NCBI RefSeq assembly: GCF_014201315.1
Contig: NZ_JACHDY010000002.1
Location: 1,116,001-1,180,000, forward strand
Length of the DNA stretch: 64,000 bases
Direction of reading: 5' to 3'
From: Edaphobacter lichenicola
GTDB taxonomy: Bacteria > Acidobacteriota > Terriglobia > Terriglobales > Acidobacteriaceae
Shown here: piece after piece, positions 25,619 to 41,746 of the stretch
How the letters are laid out: the number at the start of each line of letters is the position of its first letter
How positions within the stretch are numbered: the first letter of the stretch is position 1
Program-made: the position numbers and the translations under genes
The notes under the pieces: model-generated
Database searches by the model: none
Told to the model about the DNA's origin: nothing
Seen by the model: only the letters and a program-made list of their open reading frames with translations

Positions 25619-25748
25619 CTGTTTCAATTGCTGTTATTTCTGTCTTGAAGTTGGCGTATGAGTTATGCGCCGAGTGCTACTCTGGTAAGGTAATAAAATT
25701 GAGACGGGAGAGCGCCTGGCGGCTGCTCTCCCGTTTGCTTTTTGGGAG
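25619..25748 (+). promoter_or_regulatory. Duplicated promoter-hairpin block, copy 1
   Basis: Shares about 125 bases with 26007-26140. It contains TTGGCGTATGAGTTATG, an extended -10-like TGcTACTCT (25675-25683), then a ten-base stem ACGGGAGAGC/GCTCTCCCGT (25704-25713, 25725-25734) followed by TTGCTTTTT. No gene follows directly; the 250 bases after it look eroded. Confidence 0.65.
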
Positions 25749-26006: not shown

Positions 26007-26140
26007 GTTGTTTCGATGGTGATTATTTGTGCTGAAAAGTTGGCGTATTAGTTATGGTCCAACTGCTATTCTGGAAAGGTAGTAAAGAATTGAAACGGGA
26101 GAGAGCCTGAGGGCTGCTCTCCCGTTTGCTTTTGGGAGGA
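26007..26140 (+). promoter_or_regulatory. Duplicated promoter-hairpin block, copy 2
   Basis: As copy 1: TTGGCGTATTAGTTATG, extended -10-like TGcTATTCT (26064-26072), an 11-base stem AAACGGGAGAG/CTCTCCCGTTT (26093-26103, 26117-26127), then GCTTTT. The ribosome-binding site GGGAGGAG of the next gene follows at once. Confidence 0.65.
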
Positions 26141-26147
26141 GACCAGG

Positions 26148-26492
26148 GTGGAACGGAAGCGGGTGGCGGGACGGTTTGTGCGACAGGGACTGGACGGGGA
26201 CGGTGGAGTTCAGGGGGCAGGAGACAAAGGTGCAGGAGCTGATGGTGCTACTGCGAAGGGTCCGCGGCCGAAGTTCTGCAGGACGTTTACGCGGGCTCGG
26301 GTGGCGGAGGCGCTGCCGGAGATTGTGGAGCGGTTTGTGGAGGAGGCTAAGAAGGGCAGCATTGCGCACACAAAGATGCTGGCCAATCTGGGAGGCCTGG
26401 ACAAAGGCGAGATGCCGGAGGCGACAAAGCGGCGAGGAAAGAGCGTTGTAGGGAAGCTGCTGGAGAAGATGGCTCGCGAGCCGGAGGAGTAG
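26148..26492 (+). CDS. Small basic cluster protein, possible small terminase
   Basis: 114 residues from a GTG at 26148 with GGAGGAG seven bases upstream. A Gly-rich N-terminus, then a helical segment ARVAEALPEIVERFVEEAKK and MLANLGGLDK, and a basic C-terminus. It sits at the head of the virion genes where a small terminase often lies, but no terminase signature is seen. Treat the role as a guess. Confidence 0.6.
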   Translation: MERKRVAGRFVRQGLDGDGGVQGAGDKGAGADGATAKGPRPKFCRTFTRARVAEALPEIVERFVEEAKKGSIAHTKMLANLGGLDKGEMPEATKRRGKSVVGKLLEKMAREPEE

Positions 26493-26534
26493 GTAAGGCG
26501 GATTCCTGGGTGGTCGGGGGTTGTTCCGCGGTGA

Positions 26535-26595
26535 TTTGTAACTGATCTTGATCGGTGTGAGATTTATTTGTAATCGATATTGATCGTTATGAGAT
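26535..26595. repeat. 29-bp imperfect direct repeat with GATC cores
   Basis: TTTGTAACTGATCTTGATCG and TTTGTAATCGATATTGATCG, each continued to TGAGAT, start at 26535 and 26567; 24 of 29 positions agree. The 32-base spacing is about three helical turns, suggesting a pair of protein-binding sites upstream of the protease gene. Confidence 0.6.
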
Positions 26596-26727
26596 CGAGC
26601 GCGGGAGAGCGTGGTGGGGATGTCCCTGCTGGGCGTGCCGGTTGAGAAAAAAGGCAGCCGCGCACGTTCGCGGGGACGGTAGTAGTGGTGTGGTTCGTTG
26701 GGCGAAGGAAAAAATACAGGAGGTGCA

Positions 26728-27366
26728 ATGGGACACTCGGAGGGGCTTCATCGGCGAAGTGCTGGGCTTGCTGGATGGTCGGAGCTTGCAGGCAGGCGGG
26801 ATGGTTTGCGGGGTGCGGCGGGCCTGGAGATGCGGGCGATGGCGGTGGAGTTTCCGGTAGTGCACGGACATCCGAACCGATTGCCGTTTGAAGGAGTGTT
26901 GACGCTGGTGGATGTGGCGAGCGATAAGGCTCCCAGTGGTGCGAAGGGGCACCGGGTGGTGCTGACGCGTGCGGCTGCGGAGGCTGCGCTGCCAAGTCTG
27001 CTGGGGATGGCTGTCGACTACAAGGCGGGGTGGGATGGACATGATGCGCGACAGAAGTGCGGCATCATTACAGCCGCTGAGTTGGACGGACAGAAGCTGA
27101 TGGTTGCGGGTTACTTGTTTGCGCGGGACTTTCCGGAGATGGAGGCGAAGATCCAGGGGAGCGGAGCTACGTCAAACTTGATGGGGATGAGCTATGAGCT
27201 GGCGGATGCACATGTGGCGGATATGCGGGCGCAGGTGTGGACTCTGACTCGTGCGACCTTTACCGGGGCTGCGATTCTGCTGCGGGAGAAGGCCGCTTAT
27301 CGGAGTACGAGCTTTCGTGTGAAGCGGCCGGCTTCGGTTGGGCGACGGGTGGCTGTGGCTCGGTAA
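26728..27366 (+). CDS. Putative prohead (capsid maturation) protease
   Basis: 212 residues from the ATG at 26728, with AGGAGG four bases upstream. The core resembles head-maturation proteases: PFEGVLTLVDVASDKAPSG, then GHDARQKCGIITAAELDG, LMVAGYLFARDFPEM and NLMGMSYEL, with a conserved His in GHD and Ser in GMSYE that could form the active site. Position supports it: just before scaffold-like and capsid genes. I have no alignment, so the family is inferred. Confidence 0.5.
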   Translation: MGHSEGLHRRSAGLAGWSELAGRRDGLRGAAGLEMRAMAVEFPVVHGHPNRLPFEGVLTLVDVASDKAPSGAKGHRVVLTRAAAEAALPSLLGMAVDYKAGWDGHDARQKCGIITAAELDGQKLMVAGYLFARDFPEMEAKIQGSGATSNLMGMSYELADAHVADMRAQVWTLTRATFTGAAILLREKAAYRSTSFRVKRPASVGRRVAVAR

Positions 27367-27374
27367 ATAGCGGA

Positions 27375-27437
27375 AAGACAACTGCGTGCTGCGCACATGG
27401 CGCGATCTGCCACAGGAGGCAGACCGCCTTCGGCGCC
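27375..27437 (+). repeat. Two-hairpin dispersed repeat (family H), copy B
   Basis: Lies exactly in the gap between the protease and the next gene. Core GATCTGCCACAGGAGGC; hairpins GCGCacatgGCGC and GCCttcGGC, shorter than in the other copies but still paired. Confidence 0.85.
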
Positions 27438-27455
27438 TAAACGAATGAGGGGACG

Positions 27456-27839
27456 ATGAGTTTTATAAGTGTGATGGAGACGATTGGGAAGGGCTTTGCC
27501 AAGGGGCTGAAGTGGGCGGTGGAGTATGCGGTTCCGGTGGAGAAGCTGGTTGGGCTTCTGTTTCCGGTTGCTGCTCCGATTGCGAATGAGGTGGCCGATG
27601 CTACTTCGCTGATTCAGACGGCGGTGCTGCTGGTGGAGCAGAAGTATGCGGCCTCCGGCGCGCAGAGCGGCACGGGTGCACAGAAGCTTTCTGAGGTTCT
27701 GCTGCTGACTGAGCAGGCGGTGACTGCGCTGTTGGCGAAGGCAGGCATTACTGCTGACAGTAGCTACATCGCGAATGTGGTCTCTGCCGTAGTGGCGATT
27801 CTGAATGTGCAGAATGGCCAGGGCTCGGTTGCGGCCTAA
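27456..27839 (+). CDS. Small phage-cluster protein with hydrophobic segments (holin-like)
   Basis: 127 residues; GAGGGG precedes the ATG. Hydrophobic stretches VEKLVGLLFPVAAPIANEV and IANVVSAVVAILNVQ could be membrane-active. The pattern of a short hydrophobic N-terminus followed by an Ala-rich helix recalls the small protein at 44317. Function unknown; holin-like is a suggestion from composition. Confidence 0.6.
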   Translation: MSFISVMETIGKGFAKGLKWAVEYAVPVEKLVGLLFPVAAPIANEVADATSLIQTAVLLVEQKYAASGAQSGTGAQKLSEVLLLTEQAVTALLAKAGITADSSYIANVVSAVVAILNVQNGQGSVAA

Positions 27840-27889
27840 GACGAGATTCAGTGGGTGGACTGATTAACCGAAGAGAAAGGCGAAAGAGC

Positions 27890-28321
27890 ATGGAGATGGA
27901 ACTGGAGATGAAAGACGAGCTGGGAAGCACGGTGGAGCGTTTGGCTGCCGCGGCTGGTTTGCTGGAGCAGGCGGTCGAGAGGCTGGCACAGCGGCAGAAC
28001 GACTTTGCCATGGATGCCGAGGCTTCGATTGGCCGGATCGTCGCAACTGTCGAGAGACAGCGTGAGGCAGAGCTGGAGGAGAAGCTGGCTGCTGCGGAGG
28101 CTCAGATTGCTGAGTTGAAGGCCGCTGCTGCTTCTGTGCCTGCTGAGGTTACACATGGACGGAAGACCCTTCCTGTATCCATGGCGAACCTGCTGGCGAA
28201 GCAGGGAGTAACGGTGGATACGATGGAGGCCGGAGCTGTCGATGCTGCGCTGGTGAGTTTGAGCGTGGAGCAGCGGATTGCGGTGAAGGCTCAGTTGATG
28301 CGGTCTGGCTTGCTGGCTTAG
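27890..28321 (+). CDS. Coiled-coil scaffold-like protein
   Basis: 143 residues from the ATG at 27890. Strongly helical and charged; a coiled coil covers about 5-90 (LGSTVERLAAAAGLLEQAVE, EAELEEKLAAAEAQIAELKA). A compact C-terminal part ends AQLMRSGLLA. Directly upstream of the capsid gene, the standard place for a scaffolding protein. Confidence 0.6.
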   Translation: MEMELEMKDELGSTVERLAAAAGLLEQAVERLAQRQNDFAMDAEASIGRIVATVERQREAELEEKLAAAEAQIAELKAAAASVPAEVTHGRKTLPVSMANLLAKQGVTVDTMEAGAVDAALVSLSVEQRIAVKAQLMRSGLLA

Positions 28322-28323
28322 AT

Positions 28324-28389
28324 CAACAGCAAATGCGTGCTGCGCGCACGGCGCGATCTGCCACAAGAGGCTGACGCGCCTTCGGCGCC
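28324..28389 (+). repeat. Two-hairpin dispersed repeat (family H), copy C
   Basis: Between the scaffold-like and capsid genes. Hairpins CGCGCacgGCGCG and GCGCCttcGGCGC around the core GATCTGCCACAAGAGGCTGA. Confidence 0.85.
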
Positions 28390-28409
28390 AGTGATGAGTT
28401 TTCTAGATG

Positions 28410-28440
28410 GGCGCGGCTCTGGCTGTGCCTTTTTTGTTTT
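28410..28440 (+). terminator. Terminator-like hairpin before the capsid gene
   Basis: Stem GGCGCGGC/GCTGTGCC with two G-U pairs, loop TCTG (28410-28429), then TTTTTTGTTTT. It ends 14 bases before the capsid ATG, so it may attenuate rather than end the operon. Confidence 0.65.
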
Positions 28441-28453
28441 GAAAGGGAGAAAG

Positions 28454-29425
28454 ATGAACGCGAAGTTTACCGATATTAATGGCGCTGCAGATTTCATTGG
28501 ACCTGGCGCGATTGAAGTTCCGCTGTATCAGACAGAGATTCTGGACCTGGTTCAGCGGCGTGGGATCTTTGGCCGCCGAATCAAGCAGGTTCCTGCAACC
28601 GGCCATCCTTCACGCTACTTTGAAGAGACTGCGATTCCGTCGCCTTCGGCTTCGGCTGGATTCGTCGATCCGCGCAATATCGTTGCGCCGCTGGTGAGCC
28701 CGACTCGCGTGGAACGCAGTGTTCCACTGAAGGCCCTGGTTGCGCAGATCAACTACAACCTGTTCGATATCGAGCTTGGCCAGCAGCAGAGCCAGTTTGC
28801 TTATCTGCAGGCGAAGGATCTTGCCGATACTGTTGACGGCGTTCTGCGTACGCATGACGTTGCTCTGTGGAACGGCAGCGATACCAGCCTCAGTTCGCCT
28901 ACGACTGCGCAGTATTTTGGCGCGGGTGCGCAGATTGCTGCGGGCGGCAACACGGTTTCGATCGGCACCAACCAGAGCATCGTCGATGGCTTCAAGTCGA
29001 CCATTGCCCAGATGGTTTCGAACAGCTCGTTTGGCGTTCGTCCTACTGCGATCTATGCCAATCCTGTGCTGCTCGATCTGATCGATCGCGAGATGAAGGC
29101 GGAGTTCAACGTGGTTCTGCAGAGCAAGGAGATCGCTGCCGGTTTTAGCGTAAAGACTCTTTCGACTCAGGCGGGCGATATTCCGCTGATTCCTGAGTGG
29201 ACGCTGAGCTATACCGGCACTCCCGGTTCTGGTTCGGCTGTGCTTCCGGCTTACATCGTGACCGAGGACTTGATCGAATACCACTGGTTGAGCGATCCGA
29301 ATCCTCGCATCTTCCAACTCGGCGTCCCTGGTTCGCTGGCTTCGCAGTATGTGGTTGTGAAGTTTGGCGGCGTTGTTGTAAAGGGCGCTAACTATGCACA
29401 CTACCAGGTTCTGGTTGACCGCTAG
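28454..29425 (+). CDS. Major capsid protein, HK97-like
   Basis: 323 residues from the ATG at 28454 with GGGAG upstream. Features of HK97-fold capsids: an N-arm with EVPLYQTEILDLVQRRG, FEETAIPSPSASAGF, a spine-helix region, a substantial central domain with ALWNGSDTSLSSPT, TAIYANPVLLDLIDREM (a typical P-domain helix), and a final beta region with AYIVTEDLIEYHWLSDP. The family is inferred from these and from the neighbours (scaffold-like before, connectors after). Confidence 0.8.
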   Translation: MNAKFTDINGAADFIGPGAIEVPLYQTEILDLVQRRGIFGRRIKQVPATGHPSRYFEETAIPSPSASAGFVDPRNIVAPLVSPTRVERSVPLKALVAQINYNLFDIELGQQQSQFAYLQAKDLADTVDGVLRTHDVALWNGSDTSLSSPTTAQYFGAGAQIAAGGNTVSIGTNQSIVDGFKSTIAQMVSNSSFGVRPTAIYANPVLLDLIDREMKAEFNVVLQSKEIAAGFSVKTLSTQAGDIPLIPEWTLSYTGTPGSGSAVLPAYIVTEDLIEYHWLSDPNPRIFQLGVPGSLASQYVVVKFGGVVVKGANYAHYQVLVDR

Positions 29426-29464
29426 AGCTTCTTCTGTTTTTGACTGGTTTGATTGATAACTGCG

Positions 29465-29502
29465 GGGACCGGTGCTATTTTGTGCCGGTCCCTGTTGCTT
29501 TT
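29465..29502 (+). terminator. Terminator-like hairpin before the connector gene
   Basis: Perfect stem GGGACCGG/CCGGTCCC (29465-29472, 29485-29492) with a 12-base loop, then TGTTGCTTTT. The GAGAGAGGG ribosome-binding site of the next gene follows immediately. Confidence 0.7.
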
Positions 29503-29516
29503 GAGAGAGGGATGCG

Positions 29517-30140
29517 ATGGGCTATTTGTTGCCGACGGAGTATGTGCAGTATGGGCTGACGGCAGAGACTACGGATGACTGGGTGACGATGGCTTCCGCG
29601 CTGATGGAGTCTTATTGTCGGCGGCCTAGTCTGCTAGTGACGCAGTATGTGGAGCGAATGCGGTTGACTGCCGGCGCGCAGACGGTGCGGCTGAGCTATC
29701 GTCCGCTGGCGGCTGCGGTTGGAGCTGCTTCGGCGCTGGTTGGGGTGAGGGTTCGGTTTGCAAGACCGCGCAGGGGAGAATTGCCCGATCCGTTTCATGA
29801 GCAGATTGCGTGGGCGTTCAGCGTGCCGGGGAGCTGGAGTGCCTTGGATGTGACGACGGTCGATGTGAATCAGACGACGGCTGAGCTTACGTTTCCCAGG
29901 AACTTTCTGGGGATCGACTACAACGAGGTTGAGGTGACCTACACTTCAGGGCTGGTGACGGTGCCCGATGCGGTGAAGGTGGCTTGCGTGCAGATTGTGA
30001 AGAATGCACAGGCGACGCCGGGGACGAATGTGAAACAGACCAAGATGGACACGATGTGGATGCAGTACTTCAGCAGCTCGCTCATCGACCCTCAGGTGCA
30101 GATGCTGCTGAAGCCCTATGTCGCAGAGAGGCTCGGGTGA
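29517..30140 (+). CDS. Head-tail connector-like protein (gp6-type)
   Basis: 207 residues. The opening LLPTEYVQYGLTAETTDDWV followed by MESYCRRPSLL, and the ending helices VKVACVQIVKNAQ, resemble gp6-like head-completion/connector proteins that bind under the portal. Located straight after the capsid gene as in many siphoviruses. Confidence in the class is moderate. Confidence 0.6.
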   Translation: MGYLLPTEYVQYGLTAETTDDWVTMASALMESYCRRPSLLVTQYVERMRLTAGAQTVRLSYRPLAAAVGAASALVGVRVRFARPRRGELPDPFHEQIAWAFSVPGSWSALDVTTVDVNQTTAELTFPRNFLGIDYNEVEVTYTSGLVTVPDAVKVACVQIVKNAQATPGTNVKQTKMDTMWMQYFSSSLIDPQVQMLLKPYVAERLG

Positions 30141-30144
30141 GGCG

Positions 30145-30567
30145 ATGGGAGATGCATCGATAAGGGCGTTGCGGACGGCGGAGGTGTTGTTGCGATCCTG
30201 CGGGGGGCGGTCTGTGTTTCTGCGGATGCCGGCACTGGCGAGTTCGGGCGACACGACAGAGCAGCTGGGGCTGGCTGTGCCGACGTTTCAGGATGTGGCG
30301 CTGGTGCCGGTGGTGTTTCGGAAGGCACGGGCTACTTTGGCTAATGGTAAAGCGGCTAAGAGCGAGCTGTTTGTTTCGGCTACGGCGGTGAACGCGCTGG
30401 TGGGATCGATGGGATATTCGGCTGCGAATGTCTTGTTTGCCACGGCGTTCGGAGTGCTGATCGACGACATGCTGCTGGAGATTGAATCAGCTTCGGAGTC
30501 GGAGGTGGGCGGCGCTACCTATGTCTATCGGCTTGTGCTGCGGGCACCGTTGGCGTTGATGGTTTAG
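30145..30567 (+). CDS. Head-completion/neck-like protein
   Basis: 140 residues from the ATG at 30145, four bases after the connector stop. It contains RMPALASSGDTTEQLGLAVP and a hydrophobic middle GYSAANVLFATAFGVLIDDM. Beta-rich ending typical of small neck proteins. Assigned by position; no signature recognised. Confidence 0.5.
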   Translation: MGDASIRALRTAEVLLRSCGGRSVFLRMPALASSGDTTEQLGLAVPTFQDVALVPVVFRKARATLANGKAAKSELFVSATAVNALVGSMGYSAANVLFATAFGVLIDDMLLEIESASESEVGGATYVYRLVLRAPLALMV

Positions 30568-30603
30568 TTGCGGCGTAAATGCCACTGGAAAGGTTACAGA
30601 TAA

Positions 30604-31116
30604 ATGCAGAATGCTAGAGATACGTTTTATGTCACGCTGCGGGACAGGCTGGCGGCGGTGAATCCGGCACGAACGATCGTACTGCGCGGGGTGATACGGC
30701 CTGGCGTGCTGGTGGAGGAGAACGAGCTGGCTTCTGCGACTGTGCCGGTGAATGCGTTTTGCCTGCACTGGACGGGGCTTAGCGTGGATGCGCAGGGGGC
30801 GCTGCCGCTGGCCACGATGACTTGCGAGATCAGCTATGCGACGGATGGCGACTCTGGCAACGGCGGAATGGATCGGGGGCGGTTGCTGTCGGCGATGGAT
30901 GCAGAGCTGGTGGCGGCGGTGAGTGCGGCTCCGCAGAGTGTGACGAAGAGGAACTATGTTGGCGCGGCGGGCGGGTCGGGGCTGGCTCCGGTGGCAATGG
31001 GGACGAATGTGTTCTGGGGTGACGCTGCGTTTGGGGCTGCGGTGGTGAACACGGAGCGGCTGGAGCGTGTGGCTACGGTCGAGGTGTTTTGCTACCAGGA
31101 AGCGGGTGAGCTGTGA
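30604..31116 (+). CDS. Tail-completion/terminator-like protein
   Basis: 170 residues. DTFYVTLRDRLAAVNPARTI at the start, then a beta-rich body and VATVEVFCYQEAGEL at the end. The size, the place between neck and tail genes and the N-terminal helix fit a tail terminator. Its stop overlaps the next start (GTGA), so the two are translationally coupled. Confidence 0.5.
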   Translation: MQNARDTFYVTLRDRLAAVNPARTIVLRGVIRPGVLVEENELASATVPVNAFCLHWTGLSVDAQGALPLATMTCEISYATDGDSGNGGMDRGRLLSAMDAELVAAVSAAPQSVTKRNYVGAAGGSGLAPVAMGTNVFWGDAAFGAAVVNTERLERVATVEVFCYQEAGEL

Positions 31117-32105
31117 GCACGACGGTTACTGCGGTTGGTCTGGTGGGGGCGGTGGCTCCGGTGACGCGGAGGGTGAGGGCTTACTTTGCTCCGGTGAATC
31201 GGGCGGCGGGAGCGCCTACGGTGTTCGATGCGGCGCATAGCGGGACGTTTGCGTTGAGCTCGCCGCCGGCGCCATGGGTGGATCTGGGATGGTGCACCAA
31301 GTTCGCCAGGAAGAGCGAGACGAAGATTGGCGCACTGACGACGGGGGCTCCGGCGGTGGTGCAGAGCCAGGTGGTGACGCAGGTGGAGGCGACGTTGCAG
31401 CTCGAATTTGAGAGCTGGGGGAAGCTGCAGCTGGCGCTGGCTGCGGGGTCGCAGCAGATGAACCTGCTGCAGACTGCGACTGGAGCCGCTGCGAATGGGA
31501 GTGGGGGCAGGGCGGCACAGGCTGTTTTGCTGACTGGAGCGGCTGCATCGACGGCGACTGCTTTGAATGTAGGGGCCGCGGCGGCGGCGCAGTTTGAGGT
31601 TGGGCAGCTGGTGTCGGTCGATGAGGACTATGTGGCGCAGGTGGGATTTGTTGGGAGCGGGGTTAGCGCGGCGTATGTTAGCTCGCCGGCTTCGGTGGCG
31701 AACGACATCAATTACATTCGGCGGGTTTCGTTGAATGTGGGGCGGGTGGTGTCGATTGCCAACGGAGTGCTGCAGTTGGGAGCGCCGCTGCTGGCGGGAG
31801 CACCGCCTTCGGGGATGCAGGTAAGTCCGCTGATGGGGTTTGTCGATCGTGAGGGCGGCGGATTTTTTCAGGAGTGGTCGGGGCTGTTTGTGATGGATGG
31901 AGAGCAGGGAGACCGGGTGATCTACCACTATCCGCGGCTGCAGGCGATGCAGGGCTCGGCGGAGATGGCGGAGGCGCTGGCAGGACCGTTAGAGAAGGTG
32001 AAACTGGCGGGAGCGTTTCGCGCGCTGCCGGTGAAGGACGCTAACGACGGCGAGACGGTTTTGTGCTTCCGCAGTTATCTGCCGGGAGCGATGCGGGCTG
32101 TTTAG
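31113..32105 (+). CDS. Tail-tube-like structural protein
   Basis: 330 residues from a GTG at 31113. Rich in Ala, Gly, Val and Thr with beta-strand pattern; RRVRAYFAPVNRAAGAPTVF near the start, ending FRALPVKDANDGETVLCFRS. The composition and position suggest the major tail protein. No tape-measure gene follows, which is unusual. Confidence 0.5.
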   Translation: MSTTVTAVGLVGAVAPVTRRVRAYFAPVNRAAGAPTVFDAAHSGTFALSSPPAPWVDLGWCTKFARKSETKIGALTTGAPAVVQSQVVTQVEATLQLEFESWGKLQLALAAGSQQMNLLQTATGAAANGSGGRAAQAVLLTGAAASTATALNVGAAAAAQFEVGQLVSVDEDYVAQVGFVGSGVSAAYVSSPASVANDINYIRRVSLNVGRVVSIANGVLQLGAPLLAGAPPSGMQVSPLMGFVDREGGGFFQEWSGLFVMDGEQGDRVIYHYPRLQAMQGSAEMAEALAGPLEKVKLAGAFRALPVKDANDGETVLCFRSYLPGAMRAV

Positions 32106-32226
32106 CGGATCAACACAAGCCTGTGGGGGTTGGAGCGGGGCAACCGGGGACTACTTCCGGCAACGAGCTGCGCCGAGGGACCGTGCTCGCGGCGAACGAA
32201 AGTGAACAGGAACGAGGAGAACAGAG

Positions 32227-35200
32227 ATGCATTGGAAGCCTAAGGGATGGACGCTGATCGGGATGCTGCTGCTGGCAGCTCCGGGCGCGATGACGGTGAT
32301 GAAGGTGGCCGCTGCGGCACAGGCGACGACACCGAACACAATTGCTACTACGCAGGTTACAGATACGATCTACCGCGGAGACGGGACGCTGGCGAATGGG
32401 AGCGTGATTGTGAGCTGGCAGGCCTTTACCGCCGCGAGCGGGCAGGCTGTGCCGAGCGGCACCACTTCGGCTACGATCACGAACGGAGCTCTGAGTCTGG
32501 CCCTGGTTCCGAATGCGGGGTCGACGCCGATTGGGACCTACTATACGGCGGTGTATCACCTGGATGATGGGACGGTCAGCCGGCAGTTCTGGGTGGTTCC
32601 TGTAAGCCAGGCTCCGGTGCAGGTGAGCACGATCGAGAGCACGGTGCTTCCTACCTCGGTGGCGATGCAGACGGTGAGCAAGAACTATGTGGACACGGCG
32701 ATTGCAGCCGCGGTGACGGGACATCCGCTGGATAGCACGAATCCGTTTGTCGAGAAGGCGGGGGATACGATGACTGGACCGCTGGTGCTACCGGGCGACC
32801 CGACTACTTCGAACCAGGCGGCTGATAAGCACTATGTCGATGTGAATGTGACCGGCGTTGCGGCGGGGCTGGGACAGAAGGTTTCGACGGTGCCGGCAGC
32901 GACCCAGGTTGTGGTGCAGCCTTTGGGGACGCAGCTGCAGGTGAATAACCTGAATGGCGATGAGTATGCGAGCCAATATGTAACCGGTCTGGGCGGCAAC
33001 GGAATTGCAAATGCGGTGACGAGTCCTGATTGCGCGAGCGGCTGCGAGGTGAAGGTAGAACACAGCTATCCGGTGGGCGAGAACTATGCGGCGAGTACAT
33101 GGAATAGTGGCGCAGGAGGAACCCATATCGAGGATGACAGGAACGGACAGCGACGCGATACCTACTTCAACCCGACGAGTTCGGTCGAGGCCGGAGTTGA
33201 TGCCGGTCAGGTCATCGATGTGACTTCGACCCGGAACTCCCAGGCCGAGTTTGCGGCGGGAGGGTCATCGGATCCGAACTCCTATGCGCTGTCGATCGTT
33301 CATCGCGGCGTGACGGGGGGGTCCAATCTGTTTGCAGCGGGGATCGGAAGTGTTCCTTACTTCAAGACGAACTATAACGCGATGAACGTAGAGGGCGAGT
33401 ACAACACGCTGGGTCAGCATGTTCTGGATTCGCAGGCAATCAACTGCTATGGGGTTGGCGATTGTCTGATGGGATCGCAGATCCTGACCTCGTCGGGGGG
33501 ATTCCGCGATGAGGCAGATGAGGGCGCGCACCCCTACGATATTCAGATTCAGGAGGATTTCAACGTCTTCCAGGGAGTCTGTAGCGCGGGGTGTTCTCCG
33601 GGATCTACGGTGGTGACGGTAGGTTCCATTCAGGCGGCGGGGACGCAGGGTGAGGGGCGATATCTGATCGACAAGAATCCGGCGAAGACGATTACGATTG
33701 GGGTGTTGACGGGTGGAACGGGCCAGGTGAACTTTGGTCCGGGTCCGATCGCGACCTTCAGTGGGACGAACTTTCCGGTGAGCGTGTTTCTGGCGACGGC
33801 ACAGGTGATACCGTCTCAGGCAAACAACACCGCTCCGGGAGCAGTGACGGTGGCGATTGCGACGACCGGGGTGACGGCTGGATTCGCGACGAGTACGGCC
33901 GCGATTCCGAGTCCAAGTGGGGTGGCCTGCCTTATGGACCCTCCTATCAAGACTTCAACCACGAACTACGAGATGGCGAACTACTCGGTGGTGGATGGAA
34001 CACACCTGCAGATGACTTTGAATAAGCCGCATTATGCCGGGACCACGATTGCGTTTGGGGGGTTGTGCGGATATGGGCTGGAACAGACGGTGGATACGGT
34101 GGGGGCGATCCGGCAGGTGTTTCCTGTCGTCGGGTCTTACTCAACGACGGGTCTGTACTATGCAGGCTCGCTGACTTCGATTGTGGGCGTGCAGAAGAAC
34201 ACCAGCGGCTTTTTGAATGTGTCGCTAGCGATTTCCGCGATTGCCAGGAGCAATGGTGTGGTTACGGTTACGACGGCGGGTTCGTTGCCGGTGGATGTGA
34301 ATGGATTGAACATGACCATCTCGGGTGTGGCGGACCAGAGCTACAACGGTAACTTCGTTGTGACTACTACTGGGTCGAACACGTTGACGTTCTCAGAGAC
34401 GGGCGCCAACAGTACGAGCACGGGCGGTACTGTGTCCAAGGTGACGGGGGGATATGTTTTGTATCCCATGGCCGAGGTGCTGGGAGTATTTGATACGGCG
34501 ACGAAGAGCGTGGATGGGCAACTGACGCTGGCGCCGAACACTGTCGCCTGGGCCGTGAACGATTCTCTGGAAGAGCCGCATTATTATCAGCAGCGAGTTG
34601 CGCCGGATGTGTCCTTCATTGGACAGTGGACGCCTCGTGCTACGGTGGGGCAGACGGCGGGAGTTGAGTATGAGAACAATGTAGGCCCCGGTGTGAGCGG
34701 GTGGACGGTTTCGAATAACGTCTCTGCGTCCAACTATCTGGGCAATGGTGGAACCCATACTGAGCCGGGTTATGCCTACGTCGTGCAGGGGATCTGGCAA
34801 CGGACGATGGATGTGCAGGCGGGAGAGCAGAGTGTGTTCTCAGTTCACTGCAACTCTCATGGGTGTGGGAACTGGAACTCCGGCTACGATCTTTTTGAGT
34901 TGGACAGCAGTGCCGGGTCGGATTCGGTCTCCTTCCAGCCGACGACGAGTACGCTGCATATGAACCTGCGAGGCACGAACTATCAGTTCAGCCCACAGGC
35001 GTTTACAGCAGGGACGATCAATGCGGGGACGGTGAATGCGACGACATTGAATGGCACTGTGGGTGCGGCGCAGCTTCCGTTGTTTGGAGCTTCGGGTACG
35101 ACTCACTCTCCTGGTGCGGTTCCTGATCCTGGCGCGACGGCGGGTACAGCACGCTATCTGCGGGAGGATGGGACGTGGTCAGTTCCTGCAGGTTCGACCG

Positions 35201-36828
35201 GTGGTGGACAGACTGGATCGGGGTTGCCGAGTGGGGTGGCACCGATTGCGGGAGCGACGGCTGACTATGACTTCCTTCAAGGCAGCGGATCGGTTCTGAC
35301 GGATATCAGTGGGAATGGGAATAGCGGCACGCTGGGTTCTGGTGCGGCTGCACCCCAATGGATACCGAATGGATTGAGTTTTACTGCCTTGACGCAATCG
35401 GTTTCGCTGCCGGCCAGCTTGAACGGTTCGCAGGGATGGATCTTTTCGGTTTACGTCAATCCGTTGACTCAGGTTGCTCTGGCTTCAAACCAGTATTCGA
35501 TGATTTTAGCGTCGACCCTCGGGCCTTCTGGGTTGAACCTGCTTTATCAGGATCTCGGCTTGCAGGGATCGGCCTTCTCTCCGTCCAGCTACTCTGGCGG
35601 AAGTGCGCAGAGCTCCTGCACTACTTTGGTTGCTGGGTTCCACGTGTTCGGCTATATTCTCGGGGTTTCGGGAACGAGCACCGATCACTTCTACATTGAT
35701 GGCAACGAGTGCACGAGAGGCGGGGGGACTTCGGCGGGTTTTCAGACGAGCGGAAACCTTGTTCTTGGCTCCAGCCCTTCGGGTTCTTTCAACGGTTCGG
35801 GCTTTTATGGAAATATGTACCGCGCCGTTGCCTTTCCGACACTGAACGCTGCCCAGATGAAGCTGTACAGCCAACAGTTGACATCGGATGCGGCGAGCCG
35901 TGGAGTTCCTCTTGTTCCAGCGCTGGCTCCACAGCCGGCGCCGTCACTATTTGCGATAGGCGATTCGATTACGTTCGGTATCGGTGTCACGACACCCTGG
36001 CCGTCGCTGTTGAACCTGACTAATCAGCAGCCTTACGTGATCAACAACTATGGGATTCCAGGAGCAAAGCTCGCCGAGATGGCTGGTTCCGAAGCTAACC
36101 GTGTCGCTCCGCAATGCGGGGGATCTGGGCCGATGGTTGCGACCGTGTTTGCAGGAACCAACGACCTGAACAGCTATCCAACGCCACTGCAGACGATGAG
36201 TTTTATGTCGTCTGAGATTGCGACCCTGAAGGCTGCGGGCTGCAGGGTGTTCGTGGGGACGATGCTGTCTCGGGCGGGCAATGCGGGAGCGGGCGGGACG
36301 ATGGATGCAGCAAAGGATAGCTACGACGCGCTCATTCTTTCTGGCGCAAAGATAGCGGGTGCGGAGGGAGTCATCGACTTTGCGGCAGAGCCGTTGATTG
36401 GGGCAGACGGAGCGTCGGCAAACGGCTCCAACTTCCCCGACGGCATTCATCCTAGTCAGACTCTGCAAAACCGCATGGGTGTGATCGCCAGCAACACGCT
36501 GAACTACTCCTTCGGGTTTAGCCAGTTGAATCCGCATGTTGTTACCGCGGCGACTTACACCATGTTGAGTGGGGACGGCTATGTAACGGCGAGTCCTGTG
36601 GCAAATCAGACACTGACGCTGCCTGATTGCACCGGACCGAGCGGGGCTACCTACACGGTCTCGAATATCCAGTCGGCCTTTACGGTTGGTGTGGTGACTG
36701 GAAGTTCGTCGCAGCTGATCAATGGGCTGGCGGCGGGCACGGTGGTGCCGGTGCCGCCGAATAAGTCGTTGACGCTGCGGGATGTTCCCAACCCTAAGAC
36801 GGTTTCGGGATGTCATTGGGAGATGTAG
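32227..36828 (+). CDS. Giant fibre-like protein with signal peptide and SGNH esterase domain
   Basis: 1533 residues; ACGAGGAGAACAGAG precedes the ATG. The N-terminus is a convincing Sec signal peptide (basic MHWKPKG, hydrophobic WTLIGMLLLAAPGAM, ending AAAAQA), odd for a virion protein. Near 156-200 come tail-fibre motifs KNYVDTAIAAAV, KAGDTMTGPLVLPG and DKHYVD. A long beta-rich shaft follows, then a LamG/concanavalin-like module at about 1010-1225 (DISGNGNSGTLGSGAA), then an SGNH hydrolase at about 1240-1420: block I IGDSITFG, block II GIPGAK, block III FAGTNDL, block V DGIHPS. The catalytic Ser, Gly, Asn, Asp and His are present. It probably removes acyl groups from a surface polysaccharide. 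Confidence 0.85.
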   Translation: MHWKPKGWTLIGMLLLAAPGAMTVMKVAAAAQATTPNTIATTQVTDTIYRGDGTLANGSVIVSWQAFTAASGQAVPSGTTSATITNGALSLALVPNAGSTPIGTYYTAVYHLDDGTVSRQFWVVPVSQAPVQVSTIESTVLPTSVAMQTVSKNYVDTAIAAAVTGHPLDSTNPFVEKAGDTMTGPLVLPGDPTTSNQAADKHYVDVNVTGVAAGLGQKVSTVPAATQVVVQPLGTQLQVNNLNGDEYASQYVTGLGGNGIANAVTSPDCASGCEVKVEHSYPVGENYAASTWNSGAGGTHIEDDRNGQRRDTYFNPTSSVEAGVDAGQVIDVTSTRNSQAEFAAGGSSDPNSYALSIVHRGVTGGSNLFAAGIGSVPYFKTNYNAMNVEGEYNTLGQHVLDSQAINCYGVGDCLMGSQILTSSGGFRDEADEGAHPYDIQIQEDFNVFQGVCSAGCSPGSTVVTVGSIQAAGTQGEGRYLIDKNPAKTITIGVLTGGTGQVNFGPGPIATFSGTNFPVSVFLATAQVIPSQANNTAPGAVTVAIATTGVTAGFATSTAAIPSPSGVACLMDPPIKTSTTNYEMANYSVVDGTHLQMTLNKPHYAGTTIAFGGLCGYGLEQTVDTVGAIRQVFPVVGSYSTTGLYYAGSLTSIVGVQKNTSGFLNVSLAISAIARSNGVVTVTTAGSLPVDVNGLNMTISGVADQSYNGNFVVTTTGSNTLTFSETGANSTSTGGTVSKVTGGYVLYPMAEVLGVFDTATKSVDGQLTLAPNTVAWAVNDSLEEPHYYQQRVAPDVSFIGQWTPRATVGQTAGVEYENNVGPGVSGWTVSNNVSASNYLGNGGTHTEPGYAYVVQGIWQRTMDVQAGEQSVFSVHCNSHGCGNWNSGYDLFELDSSAGSDSVSFQPTTSTLHMNLRGTNYQFSPQAFTAGTINAGTVNATTLNGTVGAAQLPLFGASGTTHSPGAVPDPGATAGTARYLREDGTWSVPAGSTGGGQTGSGLPSGVAPIAGATADYDFLQGSGSVLTDISGNGNSGTLGSGAAAPQWIPNGLSFTALTQSVSLPASLNGSQGWIFSVYVNPLTQVALASNQYSMILASTLGPSGLNLLYQDLGLQGSAFSPSSYSGGSAQSSCTTLVAGFHVFGYILGVSGTSTDHFYIDGNECTRGGGTSAGFQTSGNLVLGSSPSGSFNGSGFYGNMYRAVAFPTLNAAQMKLYSQQLTSDAASRGVPLVPALAPQPAPSLFAIGDSITFGIGVTTPWPSLLNLTNQQPYVINNYGIPGAKLAEMAGSEANRVAPQCGGSGPMVATVFAGTNDLNSYPTPLQTMSFMSSEIATLKAAGCRVFVGTMLSRAGNAGAGGTMDAAKDSYDALILSGAKIAGAEGVIDFAAEPLIGADGASANGSNFPDGIHPSQTLQNRMGVIASNTLNYSFGFSQLNPHVVTAATYTMLSGDGYVTASPVANQTLTLPDCTGPSGATYTVSNIQSAFTVGVVTGSSSQLINGLAAGTVVPVPPNKSLTLRDVPNPKTVSGCHWEM

Positions 36829-36841
36829 TTGGTTGCAGTTG

Positions 36842-36886
36842 GGCGCGGCCTCGTTGTGCTGGCGGGGCTGCGCCTGCAGTTTTTCT
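36842..36886 (+). terminator. Terminator-like hairpin before the terminase gene
   Basis: GGCGCGGC pairs with GCTGCGCC (36842-36849, 36867-36874; one G-U), followed by TGCAGTTTTTCT. It ends about 17 bases before the terminase ATG. Confidence 0.55.
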
Positions 36887-36902
36887 GGATGAGGTTGGTG
36901 GA

Positions 36903-38414
36903 ATGGGTGAAGCTCAGCGGGATGTGGAAGATCTGCTGACGGTTGGCAGGTGGATGGATGAGAACCCAACGAGATTGATGAAGGTGGCTGAGGGGTGGTT
37001 GAAGGTTCGGGATCGTGAGGGCGTGGAGCGGCCGCTGCGGGCCAATGCGGTGCAGAAGGCGTTTGAACGCGAGCGCGGCAACCAGAACATTGTGCTGAAG
37101 GCCAGGCAGATGGGGATTACAACCTGGGTGGCGGGACGGTTTTTTTTGAAGACCATTACGGCTCGCGGCGTAATGACGGTGCAGGTGGCGCAGACGAGAG
37201 AGGCGGCAGAGGGAATCTTTCGGATGGTGCAGCGATTCTGGGAGTGTCTGCCGGAGGAGCTGCGCGAGGGTGCGCTGCGGCGGAGTAAGGCGAATGCGGG
37301 GCAGATGTGTTTTCCGGCGCTGGATAGTGAGTTTCGCGTGGTGAGCGCGGGGGATGAGAATGCTGGGCGTGGGTTGACGGTGCAGTATCTGCATTGCAGC
37401 GAGGTGAGCCGGTGGCCGGGAGATGCGGGGGCTACGCTGGCGGGGCTTCGGGCGGCGCTTGCTCCTGGGGGCGAGATGGTGATGGAGTCTACGCCGAATG
37501 GGGCTTATGGATGCTTCTATGAGGAGTGGGGACGGGCGCTGGAGCAACGAGTCGGCGAGTTAGCTGGTCAGCGGGATAGCGGTGTGGTTCGGCACTTTTT
37601 TCCGTGGTGGATGGAGGAGGCCTATGTGGCGGCTCCTGTGGGTCCTGTGGATGCGCTGCGGGAGGATGAGCTTCGGCTGGTGACGGCGCATGGTTTGACG
37701 GCGCGGCAGATTGGGTTTCGCAGAGGGCTGGAGGCTAGTTATCGGGGGCTGCGGTCGCAGGAGTTTGCAGAGGATGCGGAGAGCTGCTTCAAGGCTACGG
37801 GCGAGTGCTGCTTTGAGGTGGAGGCTGTGGAGGAGCGGCTGGCTTCGGTGGGTGAGCCTCTGGTGATGCGGCGGGGTGGGGCGTTGCAGATTTGGCTGCC
37901 TCCTATTGCCGGGAAGGAGTATGTGGTTGCGGTCGATACTGCCGGAGGTGGGACGGATGGCGACTTTGCGGCGGTGCAGGTGATCGAGAGGGAGTCCGGG
38001 TTGCAGTGCGCGGAGTTGCAGCAGAGGCTGGGGACGCTGGAGTTGGCGAGGGTTTCGGCGGATCTGGCGAGGGAGTATGGCGGGGCGATGATTGCGGTGG
38101 AGAGGAATAATCATGGAGCTGGTGTGCTTGCTTATCTGGATAGCGTGGAGCGGTATGCGCGTGTGTATGAGCAGAGTGGCGTTGCGGGTTGGTTGACGAC
38201 TGCGGGGTCGAAGCCTGGGATGGTGAGCCGGATGGGAGCTTTGCTGGTGGAGTCGCCTGGGATGTTTTTTAGCCGGCGGTTGCTGGGGGAGTGTCGGACT
38301 TTCGTTGCTATGGCTGGGGGGAGAACTGGGGCTGTGAATGGGGCGCATGATGATTGCTTGATGGCGATGGCGATTGGGCAGGCGGTTCGGGCTGAGTTGC
38401 TGGGGAAGAGATGA
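36903..38414 (+). CDS. Large terminase subunit
   Basis: Packaging motor ATPase/nuclease, 503 residues from the ATG at 36903. The ATPase has the terminase-type Walker A LKARQMGITT (66-75) and a Walker B-like YLHCSE ending in Glu167, with the coupling motif MESTPNGAYG after it. The RNase H-like nuclease has its acidic residues in EYVVAVDTAGGGTDGDF (Asp near 345), AVERNNHG (Glu near 399) and AHDDCLMAMAIG (Asp near 481). All key residues are present, so it should be functional. It lies after the tail genes instead of before the portal and capsid. Confidence 0.93.
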   Translation: MGEAQRDVEDLLTVGRWMDENPTRLMKVAEGWLKVRDREGVERPLRANAVQKAFERERGNQNIVLKARQMGITTWVAGRFFLKTITARGVMTVQVAQTREAAEGIFRMVQRFWECLPEELREGALRRSKANAGQMCFPALDSEFRVVSAGDENAGRGLTVQYLHCSEVSRWPGDAGATLAGLRAALAPGGEMVMESTPNGAYGCFYEEWGRALEQRVGELAGQRDSGVVRHFFPWWMEEAYVAAPVGPVDALREDELRLVTAHGLTARQIGFRRGLEASYRGLRSQEFAEDAESCFKATGECCFEVEAVEERLASVGEPLVMRRGGALQIWLPPIAGKEYVVAVDTAGGGTDGDFAAVQVIERESGLQCAELQQRLGTLELARVSADLAREYGGAMIAVERNNHGAGVLAYLDSVERYARVYEQSGVAGWLTTAGSKPGMVSRMGALLVESPGMFFSRRLLGECRTFVAMAGGRTGAVNGAHDDCLMAMAIGQAVRAELLGKR

Positions 38415-38593
38415 TGTCCTGCCGGACGGGCCCACTGCGCGTGGGGCGGCCACTTCGTGGTTTGTATACCCCTGCGGTTGGCGCTCCCGTTGGTCGCGAG
38501 GGAAGATTGTGCCGACCAACGGGAGGACCGCGCGAAGCTCTAAAAAGGCGTGCGAACGCCCGCCCTCCGCGCAGGAGGCCGTCCGGCAGGACA
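38415..38593. repeat. REPIN-like inverted pair of family P repeats
   Basis: 179 bases bounded by perfect 15-bp inverted repeats, TGTCCTGCCGGACGG at 38415 and CCGTCCGGCAGGACA at 38579. The two ~85-base arms are diverged copies of the same unit in opposite directions around a short centre (AGGGAAGATTGTGCC); inner arms CTCCCGTTGGTCG and CGACCAACGGGAG also pair. It starts right at the terminase stop and reaches to 22 bases before the kinase start. Confidence 0.85.
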
Positions 38594-38615
38594 CACGGGT
38601 TATTCTGTTGCTGGG

Positions 38616-39491
38616 GTGCTCGGCTTGGCGGTATTGGCAGTACAGGCGATCAGAAGAATGCGAGGTGGAGCGCAGAGCCAGCTGATGCTGGGGGCGGATG
38701 GCAAGCTTTGGGTGGTGAAGTTTCAGAATAATCCGCAGGATGTGCGGGTGCTGGCGAATGAGCTGATCGCAACACGACTGGCCGCAGCAGTGGGGCTGAC
38801 GGTGCCGAAGAGCGATGTGGTCGAGGTAACCGAGTGGCTGGTGGCGAATACGCTGGATATGTTTGTCGAGATGCCGAAGGGGCTGCGGCAGAGGTACGCG
38901 GCGGGGTTGCAGTTCGGATCGCAGTTTGTGGGTGGATTGATGCCAGGGCAGGTGGTGGACTATCTGCCGGAGCAGCAGCTGGATGAGGTGAGGAACCTGG
39001 CGGAGTTCGCGGGGATGTTGTGCATCGATAAGTGGGCGGGGAATTGTAACGGTCGGCAGGCAGTGTTTGAGAGGAAGCCTCGGGAGAAGAAGTATCGGGC
39101 GACGTTTATCGATCAGGGATTTTGCTTCAACGCGGGAGAGTGGACGTTTCCGGATTCGCCACTGCGCGGGGTGTACCAGAGGAACCAGGTGTATGCGCGG
39201 GTGACAGGGTGGGAGAGCTTCGAGCCGTGGCTGAGCCGGGTGGAGGCGATGGAGGCTGGGACGTTGTGGGAGATCGCAGAGGCGGTGCCGCCGGAGTGGT
39301 ATGGCGGGGATACAGAGGTGATCGAGCGGCTGATGGAGCAGATGCTGAGGCGGCGGTCGCGGGTGAGGGAGTTGATCGGGGAGTTTCGGGATTCGAACAG
39401 GGAACCATTCCCGATGTGGGCGTCGGGGAAGAAAATTGTTGTGCCGAGGCAGTTTGAAGAGATGAGTGGAGTGGGAAAATTTGTAATGTAG
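38616..39491 (+). CDS. HipA-like protein kinase
   Basis: 291 residues from a GTG at 38616; TTG at 38625 is an alternative, and the start may have been altered by the palindromic element just upstream. HipA/PI3-kinase-like features: AIRRMRGGAQSQ, the ATP-binding lysine in WVVKFQNNP (Lys35), the catalytic loop CIDKWAGNCNGRQ (Asp138, Asn143, Asn145) and the metal-binding FIDQG (Asp166). These residues are all in place, so it should be active. HipA proper phosphorylates a tRNA synthetase; the substrate here is unknown. There is no HipB-type antitoxin; a DUF3037 gene follows. Confidence 0.8.
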   Translation: MLGLAVLAVQAIRRMRGGAQSQLMLGADGKLWVVKFQNNPQDVRVLANELIATRLAAAVGLTVPKSDVVEVTEWLVANTLDMFVEMPKGLRQRYAAGLQFGSQFVGGLMPGQVVDYLPEQQLDEVRNLAEFAGMLCIDKWAGNCNGRQAVFERKPREKKYRATFIDQGFCFNAGEWTFPDSPLRGVYQRNQVYARVTGWESFEPWLSRVEAMEAGTLWEIAEAVPPEWYGGDTEVIERLMEQMLRRRSRVRELIGEFRDSNREPFPMWASGKKIVVPRQFEEMSGVGKFVM

Positions 39492-39536
39492 TTGTTGGGG
39501 TCGGGTGGGTACGTGTGGTAGCGGGTTTGGAGGTTG

Positions 39537-40394
39537 ATGGCTGAGCGGGTCCAATGCGAGTTCTTCCTGATCCGGTATGTGCCGGATGTGGTGAAGGGCG
39601 AGTTTGCGAATATCGGCGTGCTGCTGCGGGAGGCAGGACGCGACGATAGCGCGGTGGTGCGCTTTACACGGGACTGGGCTCGAGTGAAGTGCATGGATGC
39701 GGATGCGGATATTGGTTTGCTGGAGGCGCTGGAGGGGGAGATTGGAGCTCGGCTGCGGAGCGGGACCAGCCAGACGCCGGGAATCAAGCCGGTGATGGAG
39801 ATCCTTGAGGATACGCTGGCGAACTCGGTGCAAATGACCGAGGTGCGTGCTTGCCTGGCGGAGAGCCTGCCTGCAGAGATTGAGCAGTTGATGAAGATGT
39901 ATGTGGAGCCGTTGAAGGTGAAGGCCGAGCGGAAGAAAACGGGACGAGCGGCGATCGCTGGGGCGATGCGGACAGAGTTTGAGCGGGCTGGAGTGTGGGG
40001 GCTGATGCGGAAGAGGATTGCGGCTTCGCTGTATACGCGGGCGGGCGATCCGATGAAGATCGATTGTGGGTATCGGGCTGGATCGAGAGAGGCAACTGTG
40101 GGTGGGGTGATTCGGATGTTGCAGGCAGTGTCGCTGGAGGGCGATGTGGAGGCGGCGAAGGGGTTGGCTTATTCGGCTCCGCAGTTGGTGGAGGGCGTGC
40201 AGAGGGTGGAGGGGGCGAAGCTGGAGTTGACTGCGATTGTGGAGCCGCTACGGGCTGTCTCGGACACTGAAGACGAGGCGATGGAGCGGTATCGGTTTGG
40301 GGTGGAGGCGATGGAGCGGCAGGAGATTCGCGTGGTGACGTTGAGCGATCTGGCTCGGGTGGCCGAGACGGCTCGGGTGGAGTTGAGGGTTTGA
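39537..40394 (+). CDS. DUF3037 family protein
   Basis: 285 residues from the ATG at 39537, with GGAGG just upstream. The family signature is clear at the start: CEFFLIRYVPDVVKGEFANI then GVLLRE. The rest is helical. From memory, DUF3037 genes are often found beside HipA-like kinase genes, and the two probably act as a pair. Function unknown. Confidence 0.85.
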   Translation: MAERVQCEFFLIRYVPDVVKGEFANIGVLLREAGRDDSAVVRFTRDWARVKCMDADADIGLLEALEGEIGARLRSGTSQTPGIKPVMEILEDTLANSVQMTEVRACLAESLPAEIEQLMKMYVEPLKVKAERKKTGRAAIAGAMRTEFERAGVWGLMRKRIAASLYTRAGDPMKIDCGYRAGSREATVGGVIRMLQAVSLEGDVEAAKGLAYSAPQLVEGVQRVEGAKLELTAIVEPLRAVSDTEDEAMERYRFGVEAMERQEIRVVTLSDLARVAETARVELRV

Positions 40395-40442
40395 GAGGTT
40401 AGTTCCGGCTAGATTTCGGAAAGATGGTGGATTTCAAACGTA

Positions 40443-40475
40443 GGCATGGCCCAGGGGCTGTGCCTTTTCTTTTTG
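40443..40475 (+). terminator. Terminator-like hairpin before the portal gene
   Basis: GGCATGGC/GCTGTGCC (40443-40450, 40457-40464; two G-U pairs) followed by TTTTCTTTTT. Its right arm and T-tract are nearly the same as those of the hairpin before the capsid gene. It ends 30 bases before the portal start. Confidence 0.65.
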
Positions 40476-40504
40476 CAGTAGAGATGGAAAGAGAGAGGGT
40501 AGCG

Positions 40505-41746
40505 ATGGGCGTTCGGACGATGGTGAAGGATGTTTGGCAGAGACTGGCGGGAGTTGAGGCGGCGGCGGGCGATGCGGGGATGGGCGAGAGGAAGACGGCT
40601 ATGCTTCCCTCGGTGCTAAGTCCCTACAGACCGGCGGGGCGGCCTGGGCAGAACGCGTTGCCGAAGCCGACTGCGACGAATCTGCGGAAGTTCGCCGAGA
40701 CTCCAGTGGTGCGCCGGGCGATCAACGTGGTGAAGGACAAGATCGCGAGCATGGACTGGCAGGTGAAGGTGCGGCGCGGCTATTTGGGCGTGACGGTGCA
40801 GGATGCAGAGGCTCGCATGAAGGTTCTGCGGCAGTGTCTGGAAGAGCCGAATGCTTCGGACAGTTTTCGGGTGCTCTGGGAGCAGGTGCTGGAGGATCTG
40901 CTGGTGGGCGGATTCGGCGCGGTGGAGATGGAGAGTACGGGGGACCCTGAGAGACCGTTTCATCTTTGGCCGGTGGATGGCGCGACGATCCAAATCGATA
41001 CGAAGTGGGATGGCGATCCGAACAAGCCTCGCTATGCGCAGGCTACGGGGCGGATGGGACAGGAGTCCCTGGTGCCTCTGCTCGATGATGAGCTGATGTA
41101 TCTAAGGCTGAATCCACGTACCTACACGCCGTTTGGCCTGGGGAGGCTGGAGGTTGCGTTTGAGACGGTGAACCAGTTTCTGAGCGCGAGCCGGTATGCG
41201 GGGAAGCTCGCCAGCAACTCAGTGGCGCAGTACGCGATCTGGTTGAACGACGCTACTCCGGAGGAGCACGACCGGCTGATTCGGTGGTGGCAAGACGAGA
41301 TTGAAGGCACGGGCCGGGTTCCGTTTTTGAGCTGCGAGCAGAAGCCGGAGGTGATCCAGTTTGCCGGCGGCACGGATGCTGATCTGCGGCTGCAGTGGCA
41401 GGAGACGCTGATTCGGATGATCGCCAATGCGTTCGATCTGCCGCCGATGTTGCTTGGGGTGGCGAGCGATGTTAACAAATCGACCGCTGGGGAGATGGCA
41501 GACGAGGCGTTCCAAAGCGCGGTGGTTCCGGTTGCGAAGCTGGTGGCGGAGCACATTACGCGCGACCTGTTTGCGAAGAAGCTGGGCTGGCGCGAGTTCG
41601 AGTTCTGCTTCAACGACCTGGAGAGCAGGGATGAGATGGAGGAGCTGCAGATGCAGACGACGCTGTTGCAGGCGGGCGTACTGACCGTGGATGAGGTTCG
41701 CGCGATGCGGGGGTTAGGCCCGATCGAGGGGGCGGTGACACAGTGA
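40505..41746 (+). CDS. Portal protein, HK97-type
   Basis: 413 residues from the ATG at 40505; GAGAGGG precedes it by five bases. Portal features: ATNLRKFAETPVVRRAINVV, KDKIASMDWQVKV, DLLVGGFGAVEME, HLWPVDGATIQID, RTYTPFGLGRLEVAFETVNQ, and AFDLPPMLLGVASDVNKSTA followed by AGEMADEAFQ, all typical of the Phage_portal (HK97) family. It forms the DNA-entry ring of the capsid and docks the terminase. Its stop overlaps the next start (GTGA). Confidence 0.92.
   Translation: MGVRTMVKDVWQRLAGVEAAAGDAGMGERKTAMLPSVLSPYRPAGRPGQNALPKPTATNLRKFAETPVVRRAINVVKDKIASMDWQVKVRRGYLGVTVQDAEARMKVLRQCLEEPNASDSFRVLWEQVLEDLLVGGFGAVEMESTGDPERPFHLWPVDGATIQIDTKWDGDPNKPRYAQATGRMGQESLVPLLDDELMYLRLNPRTYTPFGLGRLEVAFETVNQFLSASRYAGKLASNSVAQYAIWLNDATPEEHDRLIRWWQDEIEGTGRVPFLSCEQKPEVIQFAGGTDADLRLQWQETLIRMIANAFDLPPMLLGVASDVNKSTAGEMADEAFQSAVVPVAKLVAEHITRDLFAKKLGWREFEFCFNDLESRDEMEELQMQTTLLQAGVLTVDEVRAMRGLGPIEGAVTQ

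Follow-up and report, generated by a model that had tools for sequence, protein, structure and literature searches.

We analyzed a 64,000-nucleotide window of the Edaphobacter lichenicola genome (contig NZ_JACHDY010000002.1, positions 1,116,001 to 1,180,000) that carries a phage-like gene cluster on its + strand at approximately 25.1-44.6 kb, with genes for a head-tail adaptor, a terminase, a HipA-like/DUF3037 pair and a portal protein. The explanation that best accounts for our observations, to which we assign a probability of roughly 0.63, is that a leader and internal intrinsic terminators silence this inherited phage-like operon and that a Q-type antiterminator opens it. The initial annotation had described a terminator-like hairpin directly before each of five cluster genes and had suggested either that the cluster is silenced by repeated attenuation and opened by an antiterminator, or that each hairpin tunes expression of the gene after it. 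The first suggestion is partly supported by sequence comparison and structure modeling, in that a Q-like gene heads the cluster family-wide and is followed by a promoter-like motif and a terminator, from which we infer antitermination. The second fits less well.

All five hairpins with T-tracts, before the starts at 26148, 28454, 29517, 36903 and 40505, were recovered by a site scan and by folding, and all lie on the + strand. The first (26093-26127) precedes g1 (26148-26492), the first open reading frame (ORF) after the leader in the ORF listing, for which family searches gave no match. The second (28409-28430, GGGCGCGGC..GGCTGTGCC-TTTTTTGTTTT) precedes the capsid gene (28454-29425), so assigned by the initial annotation and by its conservation in relatives (77-99% identity among the best 80), although Pfam and PHROG searches with the protein gave no match. 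The third (29462-29495) lies between the capsid gene and that of the connector, or head-tail adaptor (29517-30140; phrog_442, E 1.5e-13). The fourth (36833-36879, followed by TTTTTCT) precedes terL, the terminase large subunit gene (36903-38414; phrog_2, E 3.3e-23), and the fifth (40442-40465, AGGCATGGCC..GGCTGTGCCT-TTTCTTTTT) precedes the portal gene (40505-41746; PF04860, E 8e-55; phrog_2662). Each is more stable than nearly all shuffled versions of its sequence, with minimum free energies of -15 to -30 kcal/mol: -25.5 for g1 (26090-26136, z -4.3), -15.0 for capsid (28405-28442, z -3.2), -27.6 for connector (29460-29508, z -6.8), -30.5 for terL (36830-36886, z -3.0) and -16.2 for portal (40438-40477, z -2.1). 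The T-tract directly follows the stem in every hairpin but the weak terL member, which joins its T-tract only via an outer TGCAG/CTGCA helix. The spacing of 14-30 nt to the start codon that had been proposed holds if it is counted from the T-tract; counted from the stem end, the g1, capsid, connector and portal hairpins have a spacing of 22-39 nt. As had also been noticed, the capsid and portal hairpins share the right arm GCTGTGCC and a TTTT-N-TTTT tail, and a search for the GCTGTGCC-TTTT arm with one mismatch allowed found no third site in the 4.88-Mb source genome.

Terminator-like sites are enriched in the 24-43.5 kb region (25, versus 13.9 ± 4.5 in shuffled sequences); on the + strand, the top four by strength are 36840-36876, 29462-29495, 40442-40465 and 28409-28430. 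A same-strand terminator is present in 5 of the 11 cluster spacers, a count that takes in a weak match between terL and g12 and leaves out the terL hairpin, versus 1.75 expected by shuffling. As background, 6 of 42 co-directional spacers of 60-150 nt carry a terminator in a 400-kb sample, for which we used a rough gene caller that missed terL and some other cluster genes. The excess within this one genome is thus moderate, and it is the relatives that decide.

We scored approximately 100 related loci for a hairpin and T-tract no more than 130 nt upstream of each cluster gene; some genomes are represented by more than one of these loci, which makes the counts partly dependent on one another. 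The portal hairpin, the best conserved of all, is kept in 60 of 65 loci versus 7.0 expected by shuffling, and the hairpins before capsid (55 of 103 versus 12), connector (37 of 80 versus 11) and g1 (9 of 11 versus 1.7) also recur well above expectation. The terL hairpin is found in only 5 of 52 relatives versus 2.0 expected, so that it is not an established member of the set, and the idea of a terminator before each key gene was overstated. Most other cluster genes are near the shuffling expectation (g7, 2/73; g9, 4/71; g13, 3/74), with milder excesses for g2 (6/21 versus 1.3), g4 (10/70 versus 3.0) and g8 (10/72 versus 3.3). The 49 distinct portal hairpins give 439 pair cells, of which 98.9% hold standard pairs; double-sided changes occupy 51 cells, versus 14.0 ± 2.5 in shuffles, and affect 8 of the 9 pairs. 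These sequences were picked for having the hairpin, which inflates the pairing figure but not the variety of compensating changes. The portal hairpin is present whatever the order of the cluster genes.

A model of the portal hairpin, searched against 1.02 Mb from 51 sources, matched mainly portal and capsid hairpins. In the whole source genome it matched these two and a few hairpins at ordinary gene ends, such as one behind rho before a convergent gene. As hairpins of this type stand at the ends of ordinary genes elsewhere in the genome, it is very probable that the host reads the cluster hairpins as terminators, which would make them its own kind of terminator at unusual spots. An Rfam search of 20-46.5 kb gave no relevant match. 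We also considered that the portal and capsid hairpins change sequence together in each genome, an idea that found no support, as many genomes have differing stems at the two sites. A coding origin of the hairpins, considered for the open frames upstream of portal, capsid and terL, was rejected because the distance from hairpin to portal is not constrained modulo 3.

The gene at the head of the cluster (25113-25607, + strand) encodes a protein of 164 amino acids, here called Q-like, with an N-terminal helix and a sigma region-4-like domain (Pfam Sigma70_r4, AlphaFold2 model and fold alignment), and it is a candidate processive antiterminator. Of 150 genomes of the bacterial family, 112 encode a member of this protein family, almost all of them a single one, and the cluster portal was found in 77 of 110 high-quality family genomes (relatives L033-L112; window cluster 25100-46300), which places the cluster in most of them; these presence/absence counts come from draft genomes and are lower bounds. 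The two genes go together: 83 of the 88 family genomes with the cluster portal have the Q-like gene (Fisher p 7e-12), and in 55 of the 60 cases with both on one contig it shares the strand of portal and precedes it by 5-20 kb, in both gene orders. The AlphaFold2 model (101 sequences; predicted local distance difference test score 82.8) comprises a long helix at residues 34-58, a low-confidence loop at 59-80 and a sigma-region-4 bundle at 81-147. Structures of the phage 21 Q protein (21Q), which has been reported to consist of sigma region 4 and an additional helix (PMC6606751), align with residues 32-164 at Z 8.4-9.2 over 93-103 residues; the best alignment (Z 9.2, 103 residues) has a root-mean-square deviation (rmsd) of 7.7, and the crystal forms give Z 8.4 over 93-95 residues at rmsd 3.2-3.5. 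Most sigma-factor matches span only the C-terminal domain, approximately residues 65-153. This likeness to the 21Q antiterminator is suggestive. AlpA, which is similar to 21Q (PMC9371919), is absent from the fold-search matches listed, an absence that excludes nothing.

Divergent to the Q-like gene is a gene for a repressor-like regulator (23702-24457, - strand) with an XRE-type helix-turn-helix (HTH) and, by inspection, a CI/S24-like C-terminus (phrog_4 transcriptional repressor, E 4.5e-4; NCBIfam HipB-like, E 4.8e-5). It is present in 21 related loci, nearly always adjoining the Q-like gene, and is the obvious candidate for a repressor of that gene.

A leader of approximately 125 nt, with the hairpin before 26148 at its end, occurs in two copies in the window and in about 20 related loci. 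Copy 1 (25620-25748, + strand) consists of TTGGCG (25651-25656), the -10-like TACTCT (25678-25683), a hairpin (25702-25736) and a T-tract, and copy 2 (26010-26138, + strand) of TTGGCG (26040-26045), the extended -10-like TGCTATTCT (TATTCT at 26067-26072), the hairpin at 26093-26127 and a T-tract. The single hairpin that had been reported here thus exists twice. A strict motif pattern for the leader matched nothing and a covariance model, R2, was used in its place; it gave just two strong matches in the genome and no third copy. The layout behind the Q-like gene is TGGC-N22-TATTCT, approximately 24 nt further on a terminator, and then the first ORF. We observed TTGNTATTCT, with at least 8 of 9 positions matching, directly behind the Q-like stop codon in 69 of 111 loci, versus 1 of 107 upstream controls and 2 of 111 shuffles, and a terminator no more than 350 nt behind the gene in 86 of 114, versus 22 when shuffled. 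In a set of 66 nonredundant loci, 56% have TG[GT]C at a single fixed offset and 51 have a terminator, which starts at a median of +24 behind the motif; in 43 of those 51, an ORF starts at a median of 16 nt behind the leader hairpin. In the clade of the window, a dyad lies between the TGGC box and the -10-like motif. A sigma-54 promoter and a normally spaced sigma-70 promoter were ruled out on spacing, by inspection, and TGGC-N22-TATTCT is taken to be a putative extended -10-like promoter.

From these elements we propose the following mechanism. Transcription would begin just 3' of the Q-like gene at the extended -10-like motif, and polymerase would normally stop at the leader hairpin approximately 24 nt further on. 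Any polymerase that leaks through from the leader or the flanks would meet further stops, at one hairpin on either side of the capsid gene and at another before portal. The Q-like protein would be made presumably once the neighboring XRE/S24-like regulator releases it, and would then load on RNA polymerase at the leader and let it pass all of these stops. The cluster would in this way be switched as one unit, as by lambda Q, AlpA and Caulobacter GafZ.

Several observations weigh against this mechanism. The capsid and connector hairpins are called in just about half of the loci, and the Q-like gene of a few genomes has a different location or lies on the opposite strand. Terminators are also present in the upstream control region (41 of 108), the -10-like pause element is weakly indicated (23% at one offset) and the TGGC box lies upstream of the usual position of a Q site. 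Sequence family searches with the Q-like protein gave no match to named Q families. In the fold searches, sigma-4 domains reach Z scores equal to that of 21Q and the Foldseek E-values exceed 0.05, so a plain activator of the sigma-4 type is possible. This is the main rival, although we consider it unlikely: the Q-like protein would be a mere initiation activator of the leader promoter, of the RinA/ArpU or GafY type, and the hairpins would be leaky and passed by chance or under strong transcription, with no antitermination. Its sigma-region-4-like HTH suits such an activator, as does an extended -10 motif that lacks a normally spaced -35. However, a simple activator leaves unexplained why a terminator stands 21-31 nt behind the promoter motif family-wide and again inside the operon, and the N-terminal helix of the Q-like protein aligns as it does in 21Q.

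A less probable reading, close to the tuning that had been suggested initially, is that partial terminators in a constitutive operon set the ratios of the head proteins and that no switch exists. Phage T7 has a terminator behind gene 10, which the strong hairpin behind the capsid gene resembles, and in close relatives the capsid hairpin keeps its end 20-26 nt from the ATG while the spacer that precedes it is unconserved and measures anywhere from 34 to 218 nt. Tuning is nevertheless the less likely option, since termination ahead of the capsid gene would reduce the most abundant and most needed virion protein. Furthermore, the portal terminators persist in both gene orders, in which their polar effect would hit different genes, and the conserved leader is left unexplained. 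Less probable still is that each hairpin just ends the preceding unit, for example a moron made up of the HipA-like and DUF3037 genes (38550-40394) under a separate promoter, and that the later genes have promoters of their own. That pair does lie directly before the portal hairpin, and such hairpins end ordinary genes in this genome. Many of the cluster hairpins, however, end just 15-35 nt or so before the start codon. With a T-tract reaching almost to the ribosome site, there is no room for a promoter and polymerase must pass the hairpin; moreover, the unconserved capsid spacers and a single weak sigma-70-like match near a hairpin do not favor separate promoters. Finally, the constant capsid spacing in close relatives might suit a hairpin and U-rich stretch acting on mRNA stability or translation, but this is very improbable, since the T-tract directly follows the stem in nearly all copies and the distance from hairpin to portal start varies from approximately 17 to >70 nt, as fits a terminator rather than a translation element.

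The cluster that the proposed leader and terminators would silence is a candidate gene transfer agent (GTA) or domesticated prophage and is probably inherited vertically within the Acidobacteriaceae; the nearest named relatives of the source genome are Edaphobacter and Granulicella. By our assignment, purE/purK lie 3' of the cluster, as they do in several relatives. Two gene orders occur (window 36903-41746 compared with L054, L057 and L060): the family majority has terL-g12-g13-portal-g2-g4-capsid, and in the clade of the window the block from terL to portal is relocated behind the fibre gene. In both orders, a HipA-like kinase gene (PF20613) and a DUF3037 gene (38550-40394) lie between terminase and portal. 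The spacers around the cluster hold a G+C-rich 65-nt repeat family, 71-94% identical (23623-23687, 27374-27438 and 28325-28389). An 85-nt repeat, 87% identical, occurs at 20923-21007 and at 38415-38499, the latter between the terminase and HipA-like genes, and a shorter related repeat is found at 23224. At 19006-19318, a 90-bp unit occurs in three tandem copies (92-93% identical), through which a minus-strand open frame runs. A survey reported 35 prophages across acidobacterial genomes and none in strain KBS 146 (PMC5900883); Acidobacteriaceae bacterium KBS 146 (L044) carries the phage-like cluster. The papers found in our literature search contain no report of antitermination or of GTAs in Acidobacteria. 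The chances seem to us evenly balanced that this is a family-wide, vertically inherited and possibly GTA-type cluster with a new family of Q-type antiterminators, a conserved leader terminator and internal terminators that selection keeps as fail-safe locks. If so, one gene and one leader would offer a single handle for turning on a cryptic, widespread cluster in one of the major groups of soil bacteria, which would make it testable whether the cluster still makes particles and moves DNA.

Among known systems, the mycobacteriophage cluster K start-associated sequences (SAS) and extended SAS (ESAS) resemble the hairpins described here in that they too are inverted repeats immediately preceding the starts of some, but not all, phage genes. 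They combine an invariant 13-bp sequence at the start site with 17-bp repeats that are conserved (PMC3203893), whereas the stems of our hairpins differ in sequence but retain pairing and are followed by a T-tract. The Q-pR'-tR' arrangement of phages 21 and lambda (PMC6606751) likewise has a regulator gene, then a promoter, then a terminator heading the late genes, and the predicted fold of the Q-like protein, a helix and a sigma-region-4 domain aligned over residues 32-164, is like that of 21Q. Unlike in those phages, the host belongs to the Acidobacteriota, the regulator lacks a sequence match to Q families, the conserved TGGC box is shifted upstream compared with the Q binding element, and the internal terminators are conserved as well. 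In the AlpR/AlpA-P-alpB-tB system of Pseudomonas aeruginosa (PMC7969949, PMC9371919), a repressor controls a 21Q-like antiterminator that has a promoter-embedded site, a role that would be matched by our XRE/S24-like regulator. At the second target of AlpA, 26 bp separate the start site from the beginning of the terminator downstream (PMC7969949), compared with approximately 24 nt behind the -10 motif here; AlpA, however, switches lysis genes, whereas the Acidobacteriaceae cluster consists of head and packaging genes. The GTA cluster of Caulobacter, with RogA and GafY/GafZ, is also a chromosomally kept phage-like cluster, in which GafZ mediates antitermination through terminators inside the cluster (PMC11150451). 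The features that the two may share are an antiterminator with a sigma-like HTH acting at one promoter, a palindrome between -35 and -10 (here a dyad between the TGGC box and the -10-like motif), and intra-cluster terminators. As differences, GafZ has been reported to lack structural similarity to Q and AlpA and works with GafY and IHF, and the Caulobacter terminator consists of a series of 150-bp repeats located after the first gene (PMC11150451). If the proposed mechanism is correct, the Acidobacteriota, like Caulobacter, would have evolved or retained antitermination as the master control over a domesticated phage cluster, but with a different regulator family.

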